Source of the DNA: a bacterium
Lineage (GTDB): Bacteria > Patescibacteriota > Minisyncoccia > UBA6257 > 2-01-FULL-56-20
DNA: 21,749 nt
Direction of reading: 5' to 3'
NCBI GenBank assembly: GCA_021780545.1
Contig: JAJXYP010000084.1
Span: 1-21,749, forward strand
Below the pieces are notes generated by a model, which saw only the letters and a program-made list of their open reading frames with translations, was not told the DNA's origin and did not search any database. Position 1 is the stretch's first letter. Every line of letters starts with the position of its first letter. Positions 8,119-17,569 of the stretch are shown here, piece by piece. The position numbers were made by a program, and so were the translations under genes.

Positions 8119-9270
8119 ATGGAGCGAGGGACGAAAGCGATGGCTGAATGGGTGGCGGCAGCCGCAGCCGTTTTTTATCTTGCCGCCGCAGGGTCTCCCG
8201 GAGTGGCGCAGGCGCAGTATACGGCAACAACCACCGTCCGCATCAGCGTCTGCGGCGACGGCATCGTCGAGTATCCGGAGGTATGCGATGACGGGGTGAA
8301 TAGCGGGGCTTACGCGACGTCATCGGCGAATCGCCACTGCGCGCCGGGCTGCATGTCCTGGGGGCCGTACTGCGGCGACGGCATTTTGCAGACGGCGTAC
8401 GGAGAGCAGTGCGATGACGGCGCGCTGAACGGCACGCCGGGCGACGGGTGTTCGGCGACGTGCCAAATCGAATCCCTCGCGCCTCTTCCGGGGCCCGGAC
8501 CGATGCCTGCCGCGGGCGGTGGACCATATTCACCCGGCAGTCCGACGCCCCCGAATCCGACGCAGGTCATTCTCGAAGGAGAAGCGTATCCAGGCGCGAG
8601 CGTGAATATTTTATATGATGGTGCAACGCTCGGCGTCGTGCAGGCTGATACGAGCGGCAATTTCTATTTTTCGACGACCAATGTGTCGCCCGGCGTTGCC
8701 ACGTTCGGCATCTGGGCGCAGGATGCCAGCGGGCTGAAGTCGGTGGCGCTTACCAGCACGTTCACGATCACGGCGAATGATGTCACGCGGATCACCGGAG
8801 AGCTTCTCCCGCCGACGATTACGCTGAGCTCCCGCCAGGTTGCGCCCGGAAGCATCCTTACTTTGTCCGGCCAGTCCGTTCCGTCGGTTACGGTGGAGGC
8901 CCACTTTCATTCGTCGAGCACCGTCACGGTGACAACGAGCACCGACTCGAACGGATTCTGGCGCATAAACTTCGATACAGCGCCGCTCGCGGCGAACGCC
9001 ATTCATACGGTGAACACCGATTTCGTCACCACACAGAACGGCGCGACAGCTCGCAGCACGCTCAGCGAATCCGTATCGTTTTTCCTCGGGACAAAGAACA
9101 TCGGCAACCGCTTTAAGGCCGACCTGAACGGCGACGGCAGGGTGAACCTCGCCGACTTTTCGATCCTCCTCTATTACTGGGGAACCAGCAATCCGATTGC
9201 CGACCTGAACGGCGACGGCATAGTGGATATCCAGGATTTAAGCATTCTGCTTTATTACTGGACCGGATAG
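8119..9270 (+). CDS. Secreted protein: Cys-rich repeats, Ig-like domains and C-terminal dockerin
   Basis: The signal peptide is residues about 1-32 (hydrophobic core WVAAAAAVFYLAAAG, then AQAQ). Two Cys-rich repeats of the CGDGIxxxxExCDDG...GDGCSxxC type follow at about 45-78 and 85-115, as in the DUF4215/myxococcus Cys-rich family. A Pro/Gly linker leads to two Ig-like domains (about 138-225 and 232-320). Residues 335-383 hold two F-hand repeats of a type I dockerin (DLNGDGRVNLAD and DLNGDGIVDIQD, each followed by SILLYYW), with the expected Asp/Asn/Asp calcium ligands. Dockerins bind cohesins, and the next gene encodes a cohesin. The ATG at 8140 is an alternative start. No -10 is seen upstream, so it may be read through from 7112 (gap 29 bases). 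Confidence 0.88.
   Translation: MERGTKAMAEWVAAAAAVFYLAAAGSPGVAQAQYTATTTVRISVCGDGIVEYPEVCDDGVNSGAYATSSANRHCAPGCMSWGPYCGDGILQTAYGEQCDDGALNGTPGDGCSATCQIESLAPLPGPGPMPAAGGGPYSPGSPTPPNPTQVILEGEAYPGASVNILYDGATLGVVQADTSGNFYFSTTNVSPGVATFGIWAQDASGLKSVALTSTFTITANDVTRITGELLPPTITLSSRQVAPGSILTLSGQSVPSVTVEAHFHSSSTVTVTTSTDSNGFWRINFDTAPLAANAIHTVNTDFVTTQNGATARSTLSESVSFFLGTKNIGNRFKADLNGDGRVNLADFSILLYYWGTSNPIADLNGDGIVDIQDLSILLYYWTG
9118..9220 (+). repeat. Duplicated dockerin half-repeat at DNA level
   Basis: The first 22 bases of each F-hand repeat (9118-9139 and 9199-9220) are identical, with an 81-base period. This shows that the two dockerin halves arose by a fairly recent duplication or are kept alike. It is coding, not a CRISPR unit. 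Confidence 0.85.
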
Positions 9271-9273
9271 GCG

Positions 9274-9282
9274 TGGTATACT
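9274..9282 (+). promoter_or_regulatory. Extended -10 (TGG-TATACT) for the cohesin gene
   Basis: TGG-TATACT begins just after the dockerin stop codon. It would start a message with a leader of about 14 bases ahead of the ATG at 9303. The GTG at 9273 overlaps this promoter and is therefore unlikely to be the start. Confidence 0.5.
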
Positions 9283-9302
9283 GGAAGTATCGTACGAATT
9301 TC

Positions 9303-10271
9303 ATGAATCGGTCCATCATTGTCGCCGTCATCGCTGCCGCGGCTATCATCGGGGGGGTTGCCCCTGTCGTATCTCGCGCCGCCGAGCTATACCTTGATCC
9401 TGCATCCGGGAAATACGCGCCCGGCGTTGCGTTCCCGGTCGTCGTCCGTGTCAACACGCAGAATCAGTGCATCAACGCCGCCGAAGTCGAAATCGCATAC
9501 CCTAAAGGAATCATTGAACCAGTCGCGGCAAGCGATGGAGATTCGATTTTCTCCATCTGGGTCAAGGAGCCGACCATTTACGCCGATTATGGTTTAGTGT
9601 CGTTTGTCGGTGGTTTGCCGGGTGGTTATTGCGGTCGGATTGCCGGCGATCCTTCGCTCAGCAACAGATTAGCGACCATCTATTTCGCGTTTTCCACATC
9701 GACTGTTCCGGCGTCATCGACGCCGCCTCGGACGGCGGCAATCACGTTCATGTCCGGAACCCGCGTGACGCTGAATGACGGCGCGGGAACGATCGCGCCG
9801 CTCGCGCTCGCGAACGCGAGCTTCACGGAAATCACCGCGGGCCATTACGCGCAGATCAATTCCTGGCAGGCGGCGATTCAAAACGATACGACGCCACCCG
9901 AACCTTTCACGGTACAGGTATACCGTGACCCATCGCTCTTTAACGGACAGTGGTTCGCCGTCTTTTCGACGGTCGACAAACAGACCGGCATCGATCATTA
10001 TGAAGTAGCCGAGGTATCTTCGTCGACCGCGAATGAACCGCAGAACGAGTGGGATTGGAAGCGCGCAATCAGTCCCTACCTGATTCAAGATCAGTCGATG
10101 AAGAGCGTTATCGCCGTGCGCGCAATTGATGCAGCCGGCAACATTCGCTTCGAGGAATGGACGCCGACGTCCACCCCCGCGACTGCGCCGGTCAACCCGA
10201 TTTTCCCGCTCATCGCGATCATCGGGGTCGTCGGATTCGTCATCCTGCAGATCATTATGCGGTTACTGTAA
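9303..10271 (+). CDS. Membrane-anchored cohesin-domain protein
   Basis: The protein has 322 residues from the ATG at 9303. This start is preferred over the GTG at 9273 because it gives a clean signal peptide (MNRSIIV...VVSRA, cut near 26) and a promoter lies between the two. Residues 28-175 match the cohesin pattern: a VRVNTQNQCINAAEVEIAYP strand pair, then DGDSIFSIW, VSFVGGLPG and a hydrophobic ATIYFAF strand. Cys56 and Cys110 could form a disulphide. An FN3-like domain spans about 197-285 (DTTPPEPFTV, AVRAIDAAGNI). One transmembrane helix (about 300-320) ends the protein, leaving the cohesin outside the cell. The dockerin protein is encoded immediately upstream, so this protein probably tethers it. 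Cohesin identity is by eye but the motif set is good. Confidence 0.82.
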   Translation: MNRSIIVAVIAAAAIIGGVAPVVSRAAELYLDPASGKYAPGVAFPVVVRVNTQNQCINAAEVEIAYPKGIIEPVAASDGDSIFSIWVKEPTIYADYGLVSFVGGLPGGYCGRIAGDPSLSNRLATIYFAFSTSTVPASSTPPRTAAITFMSGTRVTLNDGAGTIAPLALANASFTEITAGHYAQINSWQAAIQNDTTPPEPFTVQVYRDPSLFNGQWFAVFSTVDKQTGIDHYEVAEVSSSTANEPQNEWDWKRAISPYLIQDQSMKSVIAVRAIDAAGNIRFEEWTPTSTPATAPVNPIFPLIAIIGVVGFVILQIIMRLL

Positions 10272-13348: not shown

Positions 13349-13571
13349 CGGTATTGAACCCCTCAGAAATCTGGCTGAACGATACGATAAATTGCGGAAT
13401 CCCGCAATATGTTGACTATCAGATTGATATAACGTGTCTCAATAAATCGAGCACTCCTCCACTACTGTTCACCTCAGCCCGCGACTCCCGAGTCACAGGA
13501 GAGGGGAAAATATATCTTGACGACAAGGCAGGACTCCCTAAACTGAGATAGTAACCGAAAAATCAAGCATT
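13349..13571. other. Gene-free stretch between divergent genes
   Basis: No convincing gene is seen. It contains a 7-bp hairpin ATTGCGG/CCGCAAT (13391-13408, loop AATC) and a 5-bp GACTC/GAGTC hairpin (about 13484-13495). A possible plus-strand -10 (TGA-GATAGT, 13544-13552) would give a leader of about 13 bases for the gene at 13572. No tRNA or known RNA was recognised. Confidence 0.4.
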
Positions 13572-14531
13572 ATGAAAAAAACGCTGCTGAGCTTGGGAGC
13601 GCTCGCGGTATTCGTCGGCATTCTGGTGATCATTCGGAAACCGTTGCCAACGGCCCCCATCCCCGGGGCGCCTCAATCGAGTGGCGGCAGCCCCGCCTCG
13701 GCGAGCACATCACCGCAACCCGTTGCCATAACGTGGTCCCCGTTGGATCTTACACAGACCATATTCCCGGGCGCGGGAGTCGTGGCAACAGCAAGCTTCA
13801 GTAGTAATGAGAATCTTTCGGCGGTGGTGATCGACGCCGCGCCATCGCTCGGCGGTGTCGCGGCCGTCAGTCCGGCCAACTTTCCTGCAATCGTTGCCGG
13901 TCAGGCCTACCAACTCACATTGACGCTCACGGCCCCTCCGGTTTTGGCGCAACGGAGCTTTGGCGGAACGATACACATTCGAGATGCGGCGAACACATCC
14001 ACGATTTACAACAAGCCGCTCCCCGTTGCTATCCAGGTTGGCTGGGCGTCCGTTACGAATGCGTCGTCGGGCATAAGCATGGCCCTGCCCCTACTTGGCA
14101 ACACGCCGCCGGCAGTGTTTGATGACGCCGGTTCGGCGAGTTCAGGCACGGGCTTTATGCTGGATATCGCGGCTGTAAACACATCGGAAAATACGGCTTG
14201 TTCCGTCGCTCGCGTTTTCTCCCTCGCCAATCCATCCCGGGATGATTTGCGGACCTGGTTCGAACAAAACGTCGATGATGCCGCCGGAACCCTGCTCGCC
14301 TCGGGCGCATTCCAACCAGAGCAGCTCCCCAACGGCCCCGCCCTCGTTGATGCAGGCCCGATACCATCCAATTACGAGGGAGCTCCGGTAGCCCAGGCGT
14401 ACGAGATGACCTCACCCGGCGGGCCAGTCTACGCGATTACTCAAGCTCAGGATTGTCAGCTGACGGATTTCGGATACGCGCCATCTTCCGTGCCGACGAT
14501 TCTCACGCTCATTCTGGGGTCGGTTCAGTGA
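13572..14531 (+). CDS. Membrane-anchored exported protein of unknown family
   Basis: This 319-residue protein begins MKKTLLSLGALAVFVGILVI, a single N-terminal transmembrane anchor or uncleaved signal. A Pro/Ser/Ala-rich linker follows (about 24-52), then an Ig-like beta region (about 53-155; ITWSPLDLTQTIFPGAG, YQLTLTLTAPP, GTIHIRDAANTS). The rest is a mixed domain (about 160-319) with two cysteines (near 213 and 308). The middle resembles a generic transglutaminase/Ig-type beta sandwich, but I cannot assign a family. An extracellular location is inferred from the anchor. It is probably a monocistronic gene, since the next gene runs the opposite way. Confidence 0.75.
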   Translation: MKKTLLSLGALAVFVGILVIIRKPLPTAPIPGAPQSSGGSPASASTSPQPVAITWSPLDLTQTIFPGAGVVATASFSSNENLSAVVIDAAPSLGGVAAVSPANFPAIVAGQAYQLTLTLTAPPVLAQRSFGGTIHIRDAANTSTIYNKPLPVAIQVGWASVTNASSGISMALPLLGNTPPAVFDDAGSASSGTGFMLDIAAVNTSENTACSVARVFSLANPSRDDLRTWFEQNVDDAAGTLLASGAFQPEQLPNGPALVDAGPIPSNYEGAPVAQAYEMTSPGGPVYAITQAQDCQLTDFGYAPSSVPTILTLILGSVQ

Positions 14532-14677
14532 CAAGCCTGCGGCAGGCCTCCTCGGTAAGAATCCCGGTCGGGATCGCCTCGGTACTCTATAATGTTCACC
14601 GGACCTTCTGAACGGTGCACTCGGCGATTTTAAGATTTTTCTTTTCGAGATATGGGACAAGTATATTTTTTACAAAA

Positions 14678-15196
14678 TCAACCGAGGGACGCGTACAGTA
14701 ATTTAAGTTTTTTAAGACCTCGATGCGCTCGCACAGCAATGGTGTTGTTTGATTGTCCAGTGATAAGGGATATTTCTTTCAGTGATAAATCTTGCACATA
14801 TCGCATGCGCATCACTTTTTGGTATGCCGCTGGGAGGCGTTGAATCAGGAGCAATGCGGCTTTTCCGTCCAAGACATCCAGAAGATGCTCGGAGTGCCTA
14901 TCCTTAGGCTCAAAGCCTTTTTCAAGAAGTAAATCGAGCGAGGTCGTTTTTCGTTTTCGATATTCATCCACAATGAGTTTGTTAAGTATGTGGTAAAGAA
15001 ACGCTTTCATTATGTCTATCTTCCCCCCTCTGACAAGATAGCTCCATGTCTTTGTGAAGGTTCCTTGTACCAAATCCTCGCCCAGCGCATGGTCATTTAG
15101 TTTAAAAAATGCACGTGCGTTAAGCCCCTTCTCGTAGTCGTGATGAGCCACGGTTAATATAGCCTGTCGTTTTGCCTTTTGCTTCGGGTTCATCAT
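14678..15196 (-). CDS. ECF-type RNA polymerase sigma factor
   Basis: The 172-residue protein has just the two domains of ECF sigma factors. Sigma region 2 is at about 25-83 (ARAFFKLNDHALGEDLVQGT with the DLVQ-type core-binding motif, then FLYHILNKLIVDEYRKRK). Sigma region 4 is at about 112-168 (LIQRLPAAYQKVMRMRYVQD, then SLKEISLITGQSNNTIAVRA, a helix-turn-helix). There is no region 1 or 3. It redirects RNA polymerase to a specific promoter set. The same two-part element lies ahead of this gene, the divergent PAS gene and the gene at 16390, indicating autoregulation. No anti-sigma gene is evident; the PAS protein or the small membrane protein could fill that role. The first of two adjacent Met codons fits the promoter spacing. 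The region is more AT-rich than its surroundings. Confidence 0.9.
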   Translation of the reverse strand: MMNPKQKAKRQAILTVAHHDYEKGLNARAFFKLNDHALGEDLVQGTFTKTWSYLVRGGKIDIMKAFLYHILNKLIVDEYRKRKTTSLDLLLEKGFEPKDRHSEHLLDVLDGKAALLLIQRLPAAYQKVMRMRYVQDLSLKEISLITGQSNNTIAVRAHRGLKKLKLLYASLG

Positions 15197-15202
15197 ATAT
15201 AT

Positions 15203-15233
15203 TTAAGCCGAACGCGGTGGTGCTTTATTACAA
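15203..15233 (-). promoter_or_regulatory. Putative ECF promoter of the sigma gene (autoregulation)
   Basis: On the minus strand TTGTAATAA (15233-15225), 14 bases, then CGGCTTAA (15210-15203), 6 bases, then the ATG at 15196. The octamer and both spacings are identical to those ahead of the divergent gene at 15438. Confidence 0.6.
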
Positions 15234-15400
15234 GAACATTACAGTTGCGCCTCATATATTAGGCACGCTCAGCTTTCTAGGCCTGAAATCGTCCCGCATA
15301 TGAAGATGCTTGGTTACCTCAGTATTACAGTCGTCACGCAATAATTAAGGATGGAGGCACTCGAACCTTAAGCATGGCCTTTATATCCCCATATAGCAAA

Positions 15401-15431
15401 TTGCAATAATTTAAGTTCTAAAACGGCTTAA
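15401..15431 (+). promoter_or_regulatory. Putative ECF promoter of the PAS gene
   Basis: TTGCAATAA (15401-15409), 14 bases, CGGCTTAA (15424-15431), 6 bases, then the ATG at 15438. It is the same element as ahead of the sigma gene. The distance to ATG predicts a leaderless message. Confidence 0.6.
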
Positions 15432-15437
15432 CACAGT

Positions 15438-16016
15438 ATGGAAACAATAAAAAAAGATTCAAGGCAAAGTATTGAGCCTATCGGAGCCGACTTCGTCGAA
15501 CGTTTTTGGGAGGAGAGTTGGGCGTATGTCAAAACCGTGGTCGATGTCGTGCGCGAGCCGATTTTAATTCTTGATAAAAATCTTCGCGTGATGGCGGCGA
15601 ATGAATCTTTCTATCGAACGTTTCAGGTGGAACCAAAAGATACCGAAAAGAAAGTCGTATATGAACTTGGGGATGGGCAATGGGATATTCCCGCATTAAG
15701 AAAACTTCTCGAAGATATTCTGCCGAAGAACACCTTTTTTAAGGGTTTTGAAGTTATCCATGATTTTCCTTTCATTGGCCATAAAGTGATGATTTTAAAT
15801 GCTCGTCAGATACATAAGGAGGGAACCGCTTCAGGAATTTTTCCACCCATCATACTTCTTGCTATGGAAGACGTTACTGAAATAATGGTTGTTGCTGATA
15901 CGCTCGCCGGTCATGCAAACCAGCTAGAGGCAAAACTTTTAGAGCGAACGCAGAGATTGGAGACTTATATTGCAAAATTGGAAAAGGAGATAAACGAACT
16001 CAAAAAGAAACAGTAA
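15438..16016 (+). CDS. PAS-domain protein with C-terminal coiled coil
   Basis: This 192-residue cytoplasmic protein holds one PAS fold (about 33-152). It has the typical start VVREPILILDKNLRVMAANE and end IILLAMEDVTEIM, as in PAS domains next to histidine kinases and chemotaxis methyltransferases. A predicted coiled coil follows (about 160-192; LLERTQRLETYIAKLEKEIN). It has no kinase, HisKA or output domain, so it would sense a ligand or redox state and signal by protein contact. It is divergent from the ECF sigma gene and shares its promoter element, so a sensor or partner role for that sigma factor is inferred. The gene at 16103 follows after 86 bases and may be co-transcribed. Confidence 0.88.
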   Translation: METIKKDSRQSIEPIGADFVERFWEESWAYVKTVVDVVREPILILDKNLRVMAANESFYRTFQVEPKDTEKKVVYELGDGQWDIPALRKLLEDILPKNTFFKGFEVIHDFPFIGHKVMILNARQIHKEGTASGIFPPIILLAMEDVTEIMVVADTLAGHANQLEAKLLERTQRLETYIAKLEKEINELKKKQ

Positions 16017-16102
16017 TACTCAAATGACCATGGCTAAAAATACAATTTTACAATTTATACATCGCATCCTTCGTGGGATCATTGCGATCCTTCCAGAGTA
16101 AA

Positions 16103-16255
16103 ATGCTTTATACTATAGCAGTCATTTTTCTAATTCTCTGGGTTCTTGGCGTCATTGGTGTCTACGCCATCGGTTGGTTTGTGCATATCTTGCTTGTGGT
16201 TGCCGTCGTCCTCATCCTTGTCAGTCTTATTCAAGATAAAAATCCAATTAAATAA
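16103..16255 (+). CDS. lmo0937-family small membrane protein
   Basis: This 50-residue protein has two hydrophobic helices (MLYTIAVIFLILWVLGVIGV and the segment from GWFVHILLVVAVVLILVSLI) and ends QDKNPIK. The pattern and length match the lmo0937/DUF5670 family of tiny membrane proteins, often linked to stress conditions. The molecular function is unknown. The ATG at 16103 gives exactly the family start; an upstream GTG-type extension to 16073 is not needed. It is likely part of the stress module with the PAS and sigma genes. A GGATC/GATCC hairpin at about 16077-16090 precedes it. Confidence 0.85.
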   Translation: MLYTIAVIFLILWVLGVIGVYAIGWFVHILLVVAVVLILVSLIQDKNPIK

Positions 16256-16292
16256 GTTCAAATAAGTCGTGTCCCCGTATTTTATCCCTCCA

Positions 16293-16323
16293 TTGTAATA
16301 CCTCCATCTTTGGAACGGCATCT
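16293..16323 (+). promoter_or_regulatory. Third copy of the putative ECF promoter, ahead of the peptidoglycan-binding gene
   Basis: TTGTAATAC (16293-16301), 14 bases, CGGCATCT (16316-16323). The upstream half and CGGC match the elements at 15203-15233 and 15401-15431 with the same spacing, but the last four bases of the octamer differ. The start would be near 16330, giving a leader of about 60 bases. Confidence 0.45.
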
Positions 16324-16346
16324 ATAACAGAGGTATATATGGAGGT
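16298..16346. repeat. Inverted repeats around the 16390 promoter (possible operator)
   Basis: ATACCTC (16298-16304) pairs with GAGGTAT (16330-16336), and ACCTCCAT (16300-16307) pairs with ATGGAGGT (16339-16346). A further CCTCCAT stands at 16287-16293. The left arm lies between the two promoter boxes, so binding of a regulator there could block polymerase. Confidence 0.35.
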
Positions 16347-16368
16347 CGACTATATCAAAATCGAATAA
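16339..16368 (+). CDS. Possible nine-codon leader ORF (MEVDYIKIE)
   Basis: A very short ORF begins about 9 bases after the predicted start of the 16390 transcript and stops 21 bases before that gene. It could be a leader peptide or chance. It has no ribosome site of its own. Confidence 0.15.
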   Translation: MEVDYIKIE

Positions 16369-16389
16369 TAAAAAATCAATTAAAAAATC

Positions 16390-17049
16390 ATGACTAAAAC
16401 AATAAATGTATTACGCGTCGGTTTAATATCGGCAGGAGCGATGCTCACGCTTCTCATCGTACCAGCGGCAACAGTACACGCTGCCATTACGAGCCAAATG
16501 GGTGTTGGCTCGACTGGAAGCAACGTTACACAACTCCAACAATTTCTAGCCACAAATTCTCAGATATATCCCGCAGGAATCGTTTCTGGTTATTATGGGG
16601 CACTTACGCAGGCTGCAGTTACGCAGTTTCAAGTAGCTTATGGAATCGCGCAGGTTGGAAATGTCGGCCCGATAACAGAGGCGAAGATTAATAACTTGAT
16701 GACATCCGGCTTCGGCCTTGATACCAGCGCTCCGGTTATGAGCAACTTATCGGTATCACAAGTGAGTCCGAACGGTGCGACTATTAGTTGGACTACTAAC
16801 AAGCTCGCGCGCGGTCAGGTGTTCTACGATGTGAACCCGGTGCAGGCCAACGAGGCAACGGGGGTATACCAGCTTCCGTGGATTGGCGGCACACAAGCGA
16901 ACGCGAACAACAATCCGAGCGTTAGCAATACTCAGTCGATCCAGCTCACGGGTCTCCAGCCTAATACGACCTATTACTACATCACTCGCTCCATCGACGA
17001 ATCTGGTAACGTCAGCATGAGCATGAACCAATCATTCCAAACGAATTAG
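16390..17049 (+). CDS. Exported peptidoglycan-binding (PG_binding_1) and FN3 protein
   Basis: The 219-residue protein has a signal peptide (about 1-32, ending VHAAI). A PG_binding_1 three-helix domain spans about 38-104 (GSTGSNVTQLQQFL, GYYGALTQAAVTQFQVAYGI). An FN3-like domain spans about 113-219 (APVMSNLSVSQVSPNGATIS, LQPNTTYYYITRSID). It should act outside the membrane, attaching to cell-wall peptidoglycan and presenting an FN3 module. It is likely controlled by the ECF sigma factor through the element at 16293. The leader of about 60 bases is unusual here, where most genes are leaderless. A strong terminator follows. Confidence 0.9.
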   Translation: MTKTINVLRVGLISAGAMLTLLIVPAATVHAAITSQMGVGSTGSNVTQLQQFLATNSQIYPAGIVSGYYGALTQAAVTQFQVAYGIAQVGNVGPITEAKINNLMTSGFGLDTSAPVMSNLSVSQVSPNGATISWTTNKLARGQVFYDVNPVQANEATGVYQLPWIGGTQANANNNPSVSNTQSIQLTGLQPNTTYYYITRSIDESGNVSMSMNQSFQTN

Positions 17050-17081
17050 GGAGATTGTGCATGCATAGCGGTAGTAGGATA

Positions 17082-17113
17082 AAAATCGCCGAGTAGTACT
17101 CGGTGATTTTTTG
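17082..17113 (+). terminator. Strong intrinsic terminator
   Basis: AAAATCGCCGAG (17082-17093) and CTCGGTGATTTT (17099-17110) form a 12-bp stem with one G-U pair and a TAGTA loop, followed by TTG. It ends the 16390 transcript and the sigma/PAS module. Confidence 0.85.
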
Positions 17114-17482
17114 TTTATAAGAGATATCCATACACGGCCATGCGGCCGTGAGCTATTTGTGAGGAGAGGAATTTTGGCGCGCAGAGGCGAAGCCCCGAAG
17201 CCAGCAGGCTGAGGGGCTGAGTGCTGAGTTTCAGGATTGCCGGAGGAAGGGCAGGAATACCAAAATAGGTATATTGTCGTTTTCAAAACTGGAGCAAAAT
17301 TTAGATTTGACGGGGCATAAAACGCGTCAAGGGGGGGTCAGGTATTCTGTACGATCATATCGGACACTCTGGCACAATGAACGATATGACCCTCTTCTGA
17401 TTTACCCCGGCTTCGTTCAGGACCATGTACCACCCGACTCCTCAAGCCATAAATTTCTTTCTGATCGCGAAGTCTCTATCTG
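17114..17482. other. Gene-free stretch with several hairpins
   Basis: I see no convincing gene. It contains three notable structures. One is a 7-bp CACGGCC/GGCCGTG hairpin (17133-17150). The second is a composite hairpin with tandem G-A mismatches (17191-17218). The third is an 8-bp inverted repeat TCATATCG/CGATATGA (17355-17362, 17382-17389) downstream of a G-run. An ATACC/GGTAT hairpin lies at 17257-17272. Confidence 0.5.
17191..17218 (+). ncRNA. Candidate structured RNA hairpin with tandem GA pairs
   Basis: AGCCCC (17191-17196) and GGGGCT (17213-17218) form the outer 6-bp stem. A GA/GA internal loop follows, then AGCC/GGCT as the inner 4-bp stem with an AGCA tetraloop. Sheared GA pairs are typical of functional RNA. 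No family is recognised, and the strand is chosen by the GA geometry only. Confidence 0.3.
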
Positions 17483-17569
17483 CGGAGGGTAGAGGATTCG
17501 AACCTCTGAGGGGATTTCTCCCCAACCGCATTTCGAGTGCGGCGCGTTAGACCACTCTGCCAACCCTCC
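17483..17569 (-). tRNA. tRNA-Ser(CGA)
   Basis: On the minus strand the acceptor is GGAGGGT/ACCCTCC with discriminator G. The anticodon stem is CCGCA/TGCGG around loop CTCGAAA, so the anticodon is CGA, reading UCG. A type II variable arm (GGGGAGAAATCCCC) and the T-arm AGAGG-TTCGAAT-CCTCT complete an 87-base tRNA-Ser. CCA is not encoded. Confidence 0.95.

Follow-up and report, generated by a model that had tools for sequence, protein, structure and literature searches.

A candidate autoregulated ECF sigma factor regulon with a shared two-box promoter in a patescibacterial genome

Which genes are read by an extracytoplasmic function (ECF) sigma factor encoded in the reduced genome of a patescibacterium, and through which promoter? 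The question is raised by contig JAJXYP010000084.1 of assembly GCA_021780545.1, a stretch of 21,749 nucleotides referred to below as the window; it is contig C49 of a draft genome of 675 kb in 92 contigs, 83% complete. A first-pass annotation of this DNA had proposed that a sigma factor gene (SIG), a divergent gene encoding a PAS protein (PAS) and a gene encoding a peptidoglycan-binding/FN3-type protein (PGfn3) share a two-part promoter. Gene regulation in uncultured Patescibacteria is little known, and a literature search, mainly of open-licence papers, found no paper on ECF regulons in this group. As the sigma factor, the -35 and -10 elements, their spacing and the targets can here be named from sequence alone, a testable promoter is proposed for many genera, together with specific predictions: mRNAs without leaders, a divergent gene that can be exchanged while its promoter stays, and a conserved pair of TGTAAT boxes. 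The genes and promoters concerned are the following:

14678..15196, minus strand: SIG, ECF sigma factor, 172 amino acids, sigma2 and sigma4 (Pfam, NCBIfam, profile search)
15203..15233, minus strand: SIG promoter, TTGTAATAA at 15233-15225, N14, CGGCTTAA at 15210-15203, N6, ATG at 15196 (direct reading)
15401..15431, plus strand: PAS promoter, TTGCAATAA at 15401-15409, N14, CGGCTTAA at 15424-15431, N6, ATG at 15438 (direct reading)
15438..16016, plus strand: PAS protein, 192 amino acids, PAS fold and 45-residue C-terminal helix (Pfam, AlphaFold2, Foldseek)
16293..16323, plus strand: PGfn3 promoter, TTGTAATAC at 16293-16301, N14, CGGCATCT at 16316-16323; ATG 66 nucleotides on, at 16390 (direct reading)
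16390..17049, plus strand: PGfn3, PG_binding_1 and FN3-type protein, 219 amino acids (PF01471, E 1.8e-9; PF00041, E 7.7e-6)

The shared promoter and its conservation among relatives

SIG scored 51.2 bits against TIGR02937 (sigma70-ECF; cut-off 42.9), and a profile built from 29 SIG orthologues gave a full-length match to the SigW structure 5wuq at E 1.5e-12 and also matched SigL- and SigH-type structures. In the Pfam scan Sigma70_r4_2 was over its cut-off (E 7.8e-13) and Sigma70_r2, at 21 bits, was below its cut-off of 24. This architecture, sigma2 and sigma4 without sigma3, is that of ECF (group IV) factors, which bears out the sigma identity given in the first-pass annotation. The octamer and the two spacings that it had described ahead of both SIG and PAS proved exact in direct reading, and the third two-box copy was located ahead of PGfn3 at 16293-16323. 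In the host genome, TTGYAATA-N14..16-CGGCTTAA had 2 matches, both at SIG/PAS (control 0), and TGTAATA-N15-CGGCNTNA at 0-1 mismatch matched only the SIG, PAS and PGfn3 elements. Looser searches did not exceed their controls: TGYAATA-N14..17-CGKC gave 5 matches, 3 of them at the locus and all with N15 (reversed control 8), and TGTAATA-N15-CGGCNTNA at up to 2 mismatches gave 14, with 16 in the control. The loose pattern stays at background level within the genome; it is their conservation among relatives that lifts the three elements far above chance.

SIG regions of relatives (loci are given L numbers and genomes G numbers) were obtained from a search of genome contigs (17 loci; L019, a distant Chitinophaga sigma, was excluded) and from whole genomes, both of the family (10 of 38 at E<=1e-20, with 7 at E<=3.4e-52 and the remainder 34-39% identical) and of the class (14 of 383 at E<=1e-40, longer stretches being taken too). 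The named hosts are of Parcubacteria type and include Zambryskibacteria, Taylorbacteria, Nomurabacteria, Staskawiczbacteria, Vogelbacteria, Doudnabacteria and others. The patchy distribution at class level, over many families and with the hosts of L053 and L054 included, suggests loss or horizontal spread. The resulting 35 SIG regions contain second copies or pieces (L008, L071, L073), and L003 is truncated by a contig end. In-frame stops were seen in the SIG copies of L006, L071 and L073; the genome of the last, G034, holds a second, intact SIG at L055, and the broken one adjoins an intact PAS.

The strict pattern TGYAAYV-N15-CGKC, searched for in the 120 bp upstream of PAS and the 160 bp upstream of PGfn3, was found upstream of 17/35 SIG, 18/25 PAS and 9/15 PGfn3 genes, and 300 dinucleotide shuffles per upstream set gave a maximum of 1 positive. 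Among spacers of 8 to 23, N15 accounted for those 17, 18 and 9 positives, and all other spacers summed for 5, 0 and 3; a looser match at N15 yielded 20 SIG promoter rows. Over 36 loci, the window included (350 kb), the strict pattern had 71 matches, of which 59 were intergenic and 12 lay in called open reading frames (ORFs), the intergenic share being 61,946 of 350,458 bases; its reversed form had 3 matches, all genic. At least 5 of the 12 genic matches are SIG or PAS promoters under over-long ORF calls (L013, L055, L059, L068, L072). It had been suggested that the element be counted inside and outside genes and looked for upstream of orthologues, and both counts, with the element concentrated between genes and kept in about half to three quarters of orthologous regions, agree with the proposal, as does the comparison for autoregulation through the two-box promoter at 17 of the 35 SIG genes. 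Many SIG promoters have TTAA after CGKC. Just above the -35 of PAS genes TAGCGA was frequent by eye, for example in L007, L016, L058, L063 and L073.

The promoter is also tied to the genomes that carry SIG. TGYAAYA-N15-CGGC had 61 matches in 19 SIG genomes (reversed control 28) and 24 in 28 SIG-free genomes of the family (control 41). Counted by hand, the TGTAATA version had 36 matches in about 15.6 Mb of SIG genomes versus 4 in about 22.2 Mb of SIG-free ones, a density some 13 times higher with genome sizes rounded. Hand-sorting placed 34 of the 61 matches within about 10 kb of SIG, and since the 27 unlinked ones are no higher than the reversed control, a wide regulon was rejected and the regulon is taken to be mainly local. 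The unlinked TGTAATA matches, 13 versus 2.8 expected from the SIG-free genomes, are only suggestive of targets beyond the locus (Poisson p 8e-6 with the rate taken as exact, binomial p 0.005 with rate error allowed); by eye some precede plausible genes (PGfn3 in G035, rhodanese-like and cupin-like genes in G080), and others lie within genes or antisense to them.

Among 33 loci, the families recurring near SIG were PAS (24), a PG-binding/FN3/ice-binding cluster (23), DUF5670 (10), YGGT-like (9) and Transgly_assoc (7). Besides PAS and PGfn3, the promoter precedes DUF5670 genes (L060, L071), a Transgly_assoc protein (L064), an ice-binding-like protein (L057), a YGGT-like family gene (L062; the relative tested falls below the Pfam cut-off) and, by eye, other secreted-looking proteins (L059, L067). 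The first-pass annotation had drawn a sigma/PAS/lmo0937/PG-binding regulon answering to envelope stress. Its PAS and PG-binding members are upheld, and the DUF5670/lmo0937 gene had no exact promoter copy of its own within the window, such copies being found in L060 and L071. Co-transcription of this gene with PAS is possible, as it is on the same strand and starts 86 nucleotides past the PAS stop. An envelope role is read solely from the target families, which are surface or membrane families, and envelope stress may accordingly be the signal of SIG.

Comparison among relatives shows the predicted promoter and how it is spaced, which targets recur behind it, and that it goes with genomes carrying SIG. 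With a probability of roughly 0.8 we consider that SIG, PAS and PGfn3 form a compact, positively autoregulated ECF regulon via the shared TGTAATA-N15-CGKC promoter. SIG together with core RNA polymerase would read this promoter, a step in which binding by SIG itself is presumed. By transcribing its own gene SIG would establish a positive feedback, and it would also transcribe the divergent PAS gene, probably with the DUF5670 gene behind it, and PGfn3, giving a mainly local regulon of genes for surface or membrane proteins. The signal that sets SIG activity most likely comes through the divergent gene, in general that of the PAS coiled-coil protein, acting on SIG itself or via another partner. 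Several observations weigh against this reading. The strict pattern is missed by 18 of the 35 SIG regions; some of these hold near variants at N15 (TGTCACA in L005, TGTCATA in L065, CGTAATA in L066) or an altered spacer (N16 in L006; N17 in L016 and L061), and the SIG regions of L010, L015, L062 and L067 had no convincing promoter match. The 27 of 61 matches away from the SIG locus merely equal the reversed control (28), and four further sigma-region-4 proteins are encoded in the same reduced genome (G000 contigs C8, C15, C26, C56). In its favour, SIG and PAS distances are correlated across 20 loci (Spearman 0.70, Mantel p 0.001), a correlation that shared ancestry alone would also yield.

Repeated TGTAAT boxes and predicted transcript starts

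Three features between the genes were passed over in the first-pass annotation: a TGTAAT box present 11 bp above the -35 of SIG only, a second such doublet farther up, and the short distance from the -10 to the ATG. The elements discussed in this section are:

15227..15243, minus strand: proximal doublet TGTAATGTTCTTGTAAT, an extra TGTAAT 11 bp above the -35, which is its downstream half (promoter alignment; exact doublet scan)
15312..15329, minus strand: distal doublet TGTAATACTGAGGTAACC, 86 bp above the proximal one (intergenic doublet scan)
16344..16350, plus strand: GGTCGAC in the PGfn3 leader (GGTCGA recurrent in relatives)

A TGTAAT with at least 5 of 6 bases stood exactly 11 bp above the -35 in 18/20 SIG promoters, 0/24 PAS promoters and 0/14 PGfn3 promoters. 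Of 21 intergenic regions between PAS and SIG, 15 had a distal doublet, compared with a mean of 0.29 and a maximum of 2 in mononucleotide shuffles, and exact TGTAAT-N5-TGTAAY had 13 matches in the 19 SIG genomes, 9 of them upstream of SIG (control 3). The distances between the two doublets (65-66, 74-77, 83-87 and 96-97 bp) are near whole turns of 10.5 bp; the Rayleigh p values, 7e-5 for the 15 related loci, 0.004 for distinct values and 0.02 for the four classes, are suggestive of helical phasing. By eye, the upstream sequences had no consistent CGKC at N15 from the distal doublet, which was therefore rejected as a second SIG promoter. An OmpR-type regulator was likewise rejected as the reader of the -35 or the binder of the doublet: PF00486 (Trans_reg_C) had no match at E<=0.001 in 11 of 18 SIG genomes, doublet-bearing ones (G012, G013, G035, G066, G224, G298) among them. 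The repeat may be the site of a candidate regulator of another type or may serve the polymerase itself.

The -10 box of 8 nucleotides ended 5 nucleotides before the ATG in 15 of 24 PAS rows and 4-7 nucleotides before it in 22 of 24, where the starts of L010, L012 and L014 had been shifted by eye to the first Met and the placements of L013 and L067 are doubtful. In 15 of 20 SIG rows, by eye, 3-8 nucleotides separated its end from the first ATG in frame, and for PGfn3 the promoter boxes lay 52-96 nucleotides upstream of the ATG. ECF transcripts usually begin a few bases below the -10. Taken with the short distance to the ATG, this places the predicted starts of SIG and PAS on the ATG or next to it, which leaves no space for a Shine-Dalgarno sequence; their mRNAs are predicted to be leaderless and that of PGfn3 to have a leader. 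By eye, GGTCGA lies well upstream of the ATG in 11 of 14 aligned PGfn3 leaders (window, L004, L008, L011, L012, L013, L058, L060, L063, L066, L073), with GAGT-TTCGA-CTC in its place in L007, L017 and L064. This leader box is a possible RNA or protein site.

The divergent gene and the readings of its role

The best Pfam match of the PAS protein was PAS_4 (E 1.3e-4, just below the cut-off); all matches were PAS families, apart from a weak one to DUF3375. Its AlphaFold2 model has a helix, a PAS fold and the long C-terminal helix (mean predicted local distance difference test score 78.1; residues 1-18 and 28-34 below 50). The nearest folds found by Foldseek were PpsR, short LOV proteins, NifL and other PAS sensors, and a profile search against PDB sequences gave no match at E<=0.001. 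Neither Pfam nor the model showed a HisKA/HWE or ATPase domain of the kind that marks a PAS histidine kinase. Among the best 15 of 153 plasmid records, none of which covers 80% of PAS, the PAS region was 40-50% identical to proteins that included rhizobial sensor kinases; the annotations included sensor histidine kinase and, once each, HWE kinase and CheB.

In several relatives the PAS slot has been replaced with the promoter retained, the occupant being a receiver protein in L005 (promoter 6 nucleotides before the gene), a PAS-HisKA kinase in L064 (5 nucleotides) and the ice-binding-like protein in L057 (5 nucleotides). In L055 the slot holds a protein of 182 amino acids followed by receiver and kinase genes. 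Comparison of these loci indicates that the gene divergent from SIG is swappable. An OmpR-type regulator and a kinase are divergent from SIG in L014, L017, L069 and L070, whose SIG genes lack the motif; L014, in which PAS, kinase and regulator genes follow one another, keeps the motif before PAS, and G080, the genome of L069, has TGTAATA-N15-CGGC before other genes. Upstream of SIG, the place of the TGTAAT doublet is taken in L014, L017 and L069 by an exact ATTAAA-type direct repeat of 11 bp (5-9% of shuffles hold some such repeat), a possible site of the linked OmpR regulator. Since the SIG tree is poorly resolved (1 starred branch of 27) and sensor types are not clustered in it, no claim is made on the descent or order of slot swaps.

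The shared promoter admits two other explanations. If the three elements were chance or a copy artefact, the few background matches of a loose pattern in each genome would be their source. This is hardly credible, as spacers and flanks vary among copies while boxes and spacing are constant across many genera, and the 71 matches versus 3 for the reversed pattern contradict it. The TGTAATA boxes might instead be sites of a response regulator or another DNA-binding regulator, with SIG merely one target. The two TGTAAT boxes 11 bp apart in most SIG promoters, direct repeats which we take to resemble the Pho-box type, and the presence of a kinase and an OmpR regulator near SIG in four loci speak for it, but the box occurs only once, unrepeated, in PAS and PGfn3 promoters, and it keeps a fixed 15-bp distance from CGKC. 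Moreover, the motif is missing at SIG in those four loci, and Trans_reg_C is missing from most SIG genomes, as described above. We regard this explanation as decidedly unlikely, and promoter recognition by SIG is preferred.

The role of PAS is less clear-cut, and the first-pass annotation's notion of a direct sensor or anti-sigma of SIG is retained as a possible reading. PAS could be an anti-sigma factor that holds SIG inactive until a signal releases it. It is the divergent neighbour of SIG in most PAS-bearing loci, equals SIG in conservation (mean column identities of 71% for PAS and 69% for SIG) and is itself under the promoter, as expected for negative feedback. This is possible, if rather doubtful: neither the sequence nor the fold of PAS matches a known anti-sigma, its best Pfam and fold matches being PAS sensors, and elsewhere kinase/receiver modules or other proteins take its place. 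That replacement, the PAS-kinase-regulator row of L014 and the identity to rhizobial plasmid kinases would suit a sensor acting through a separate kinase or receiver, in a partner-switch manner and without contact with SIG. We hold this as a serious, though minority, possibility, given that PAS has no kinase domain and that by eye no kinase adjoins it in the window. A broader reading would make SIG the type of a distinct Paceibacteria ECF clade, in which a kinase-derived stand-alone PAS controls the sigma directly without a kinase or classical anti-sigma, the divergent slot is a swappable, promoter-anchored leaderless cassette, and an undescribed regulator on the two helically phased TGTAAT doublets gates autoregulation; taken as a whole, this is somewhat unlikely.

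Comparison with known systems and other features of the locus

The nearest promoter found is that of ECF41, TGTCACA-n16-CGTC, where it precedes both the sigma and its partner gene and the neighbouring COE genes are the sole known targets, a similarly near-local regulon (PMC3426412). As described there, ECF41 has a C-terminal regulatory extension, whereas SIG and its orthologues end shortly after sigma4. The SIG locus also differs in its -35 (TGTAATA), its spacer of 15 and its CGKC, which depart from the ECF41 consensus, and no COE gene was recognised at it; one SIG promoter, that of L005, reads TGTCACA-N15-CGTC. Bacillus SigW and other two-domain ECFs include the closest solved structure to SIG by profile (5wuq), but the -35 of SIG differs from theirs. 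According to one review, about 55% of known ECFs are predicted to be positively autoregulated, and this trait and a co-transcribed anti-sigma were early defining features of ECFs, the latter now dropped as a requirement (PMC8103513).

In the alphaproteobacterial general stress response (EcfG, NepR, PhyR, HWE kinases), an ECF sigma is likewise tied to PAS sensor parts; the PAS of the SIG locus resembles the PAS of rhizobial kinases, one of them HWE, but is without a kinase domain. The gene of Streptomyces sigma-E is reportedly switched on by the two-component system CseBC. In L014, L017, L069 and L070 a kinase gene and an OmpR regulator gene likewise stand divergent from SIG, and SIG lacks the autoregulatory motif; the window differs from this type in keeping its autoregulatory promoter and having no linked OmpR gene.

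Two small genes follow PAS in the window:

16025..16102, plus strand: possible 25-amino-acid peptide gene between PAS and DUF5670 (weak; L059 has a stretch of 52% identity in the corresponding position, E 7e-4)
16103..16255, plus strand: DUF5670/lmo0937 family membrane protein, 50 amino acids (PF18919, E 1.4e-12; NF033488 above cut-off)

Pfam and NCBIfam scans of the neighbours of SIG recognised no anti-sigma family, nor was an anti-sigma of the usual membrane type recognised adjoining it. Rfam gave no match at E<=0.1 in 13500-17500. Over 14400-17200, a sigma-70 promoter scan returned 2 candidates, below the 5.7 of shuffles, and a terminator scan 3, versus 2.6 in shuffles. Elsewhere in the window, an ORF with dockerin-like repeats at its end (8119-9270) is followed by an ORF with a cohesin-like stretch (9273-10271), both seen by eye.

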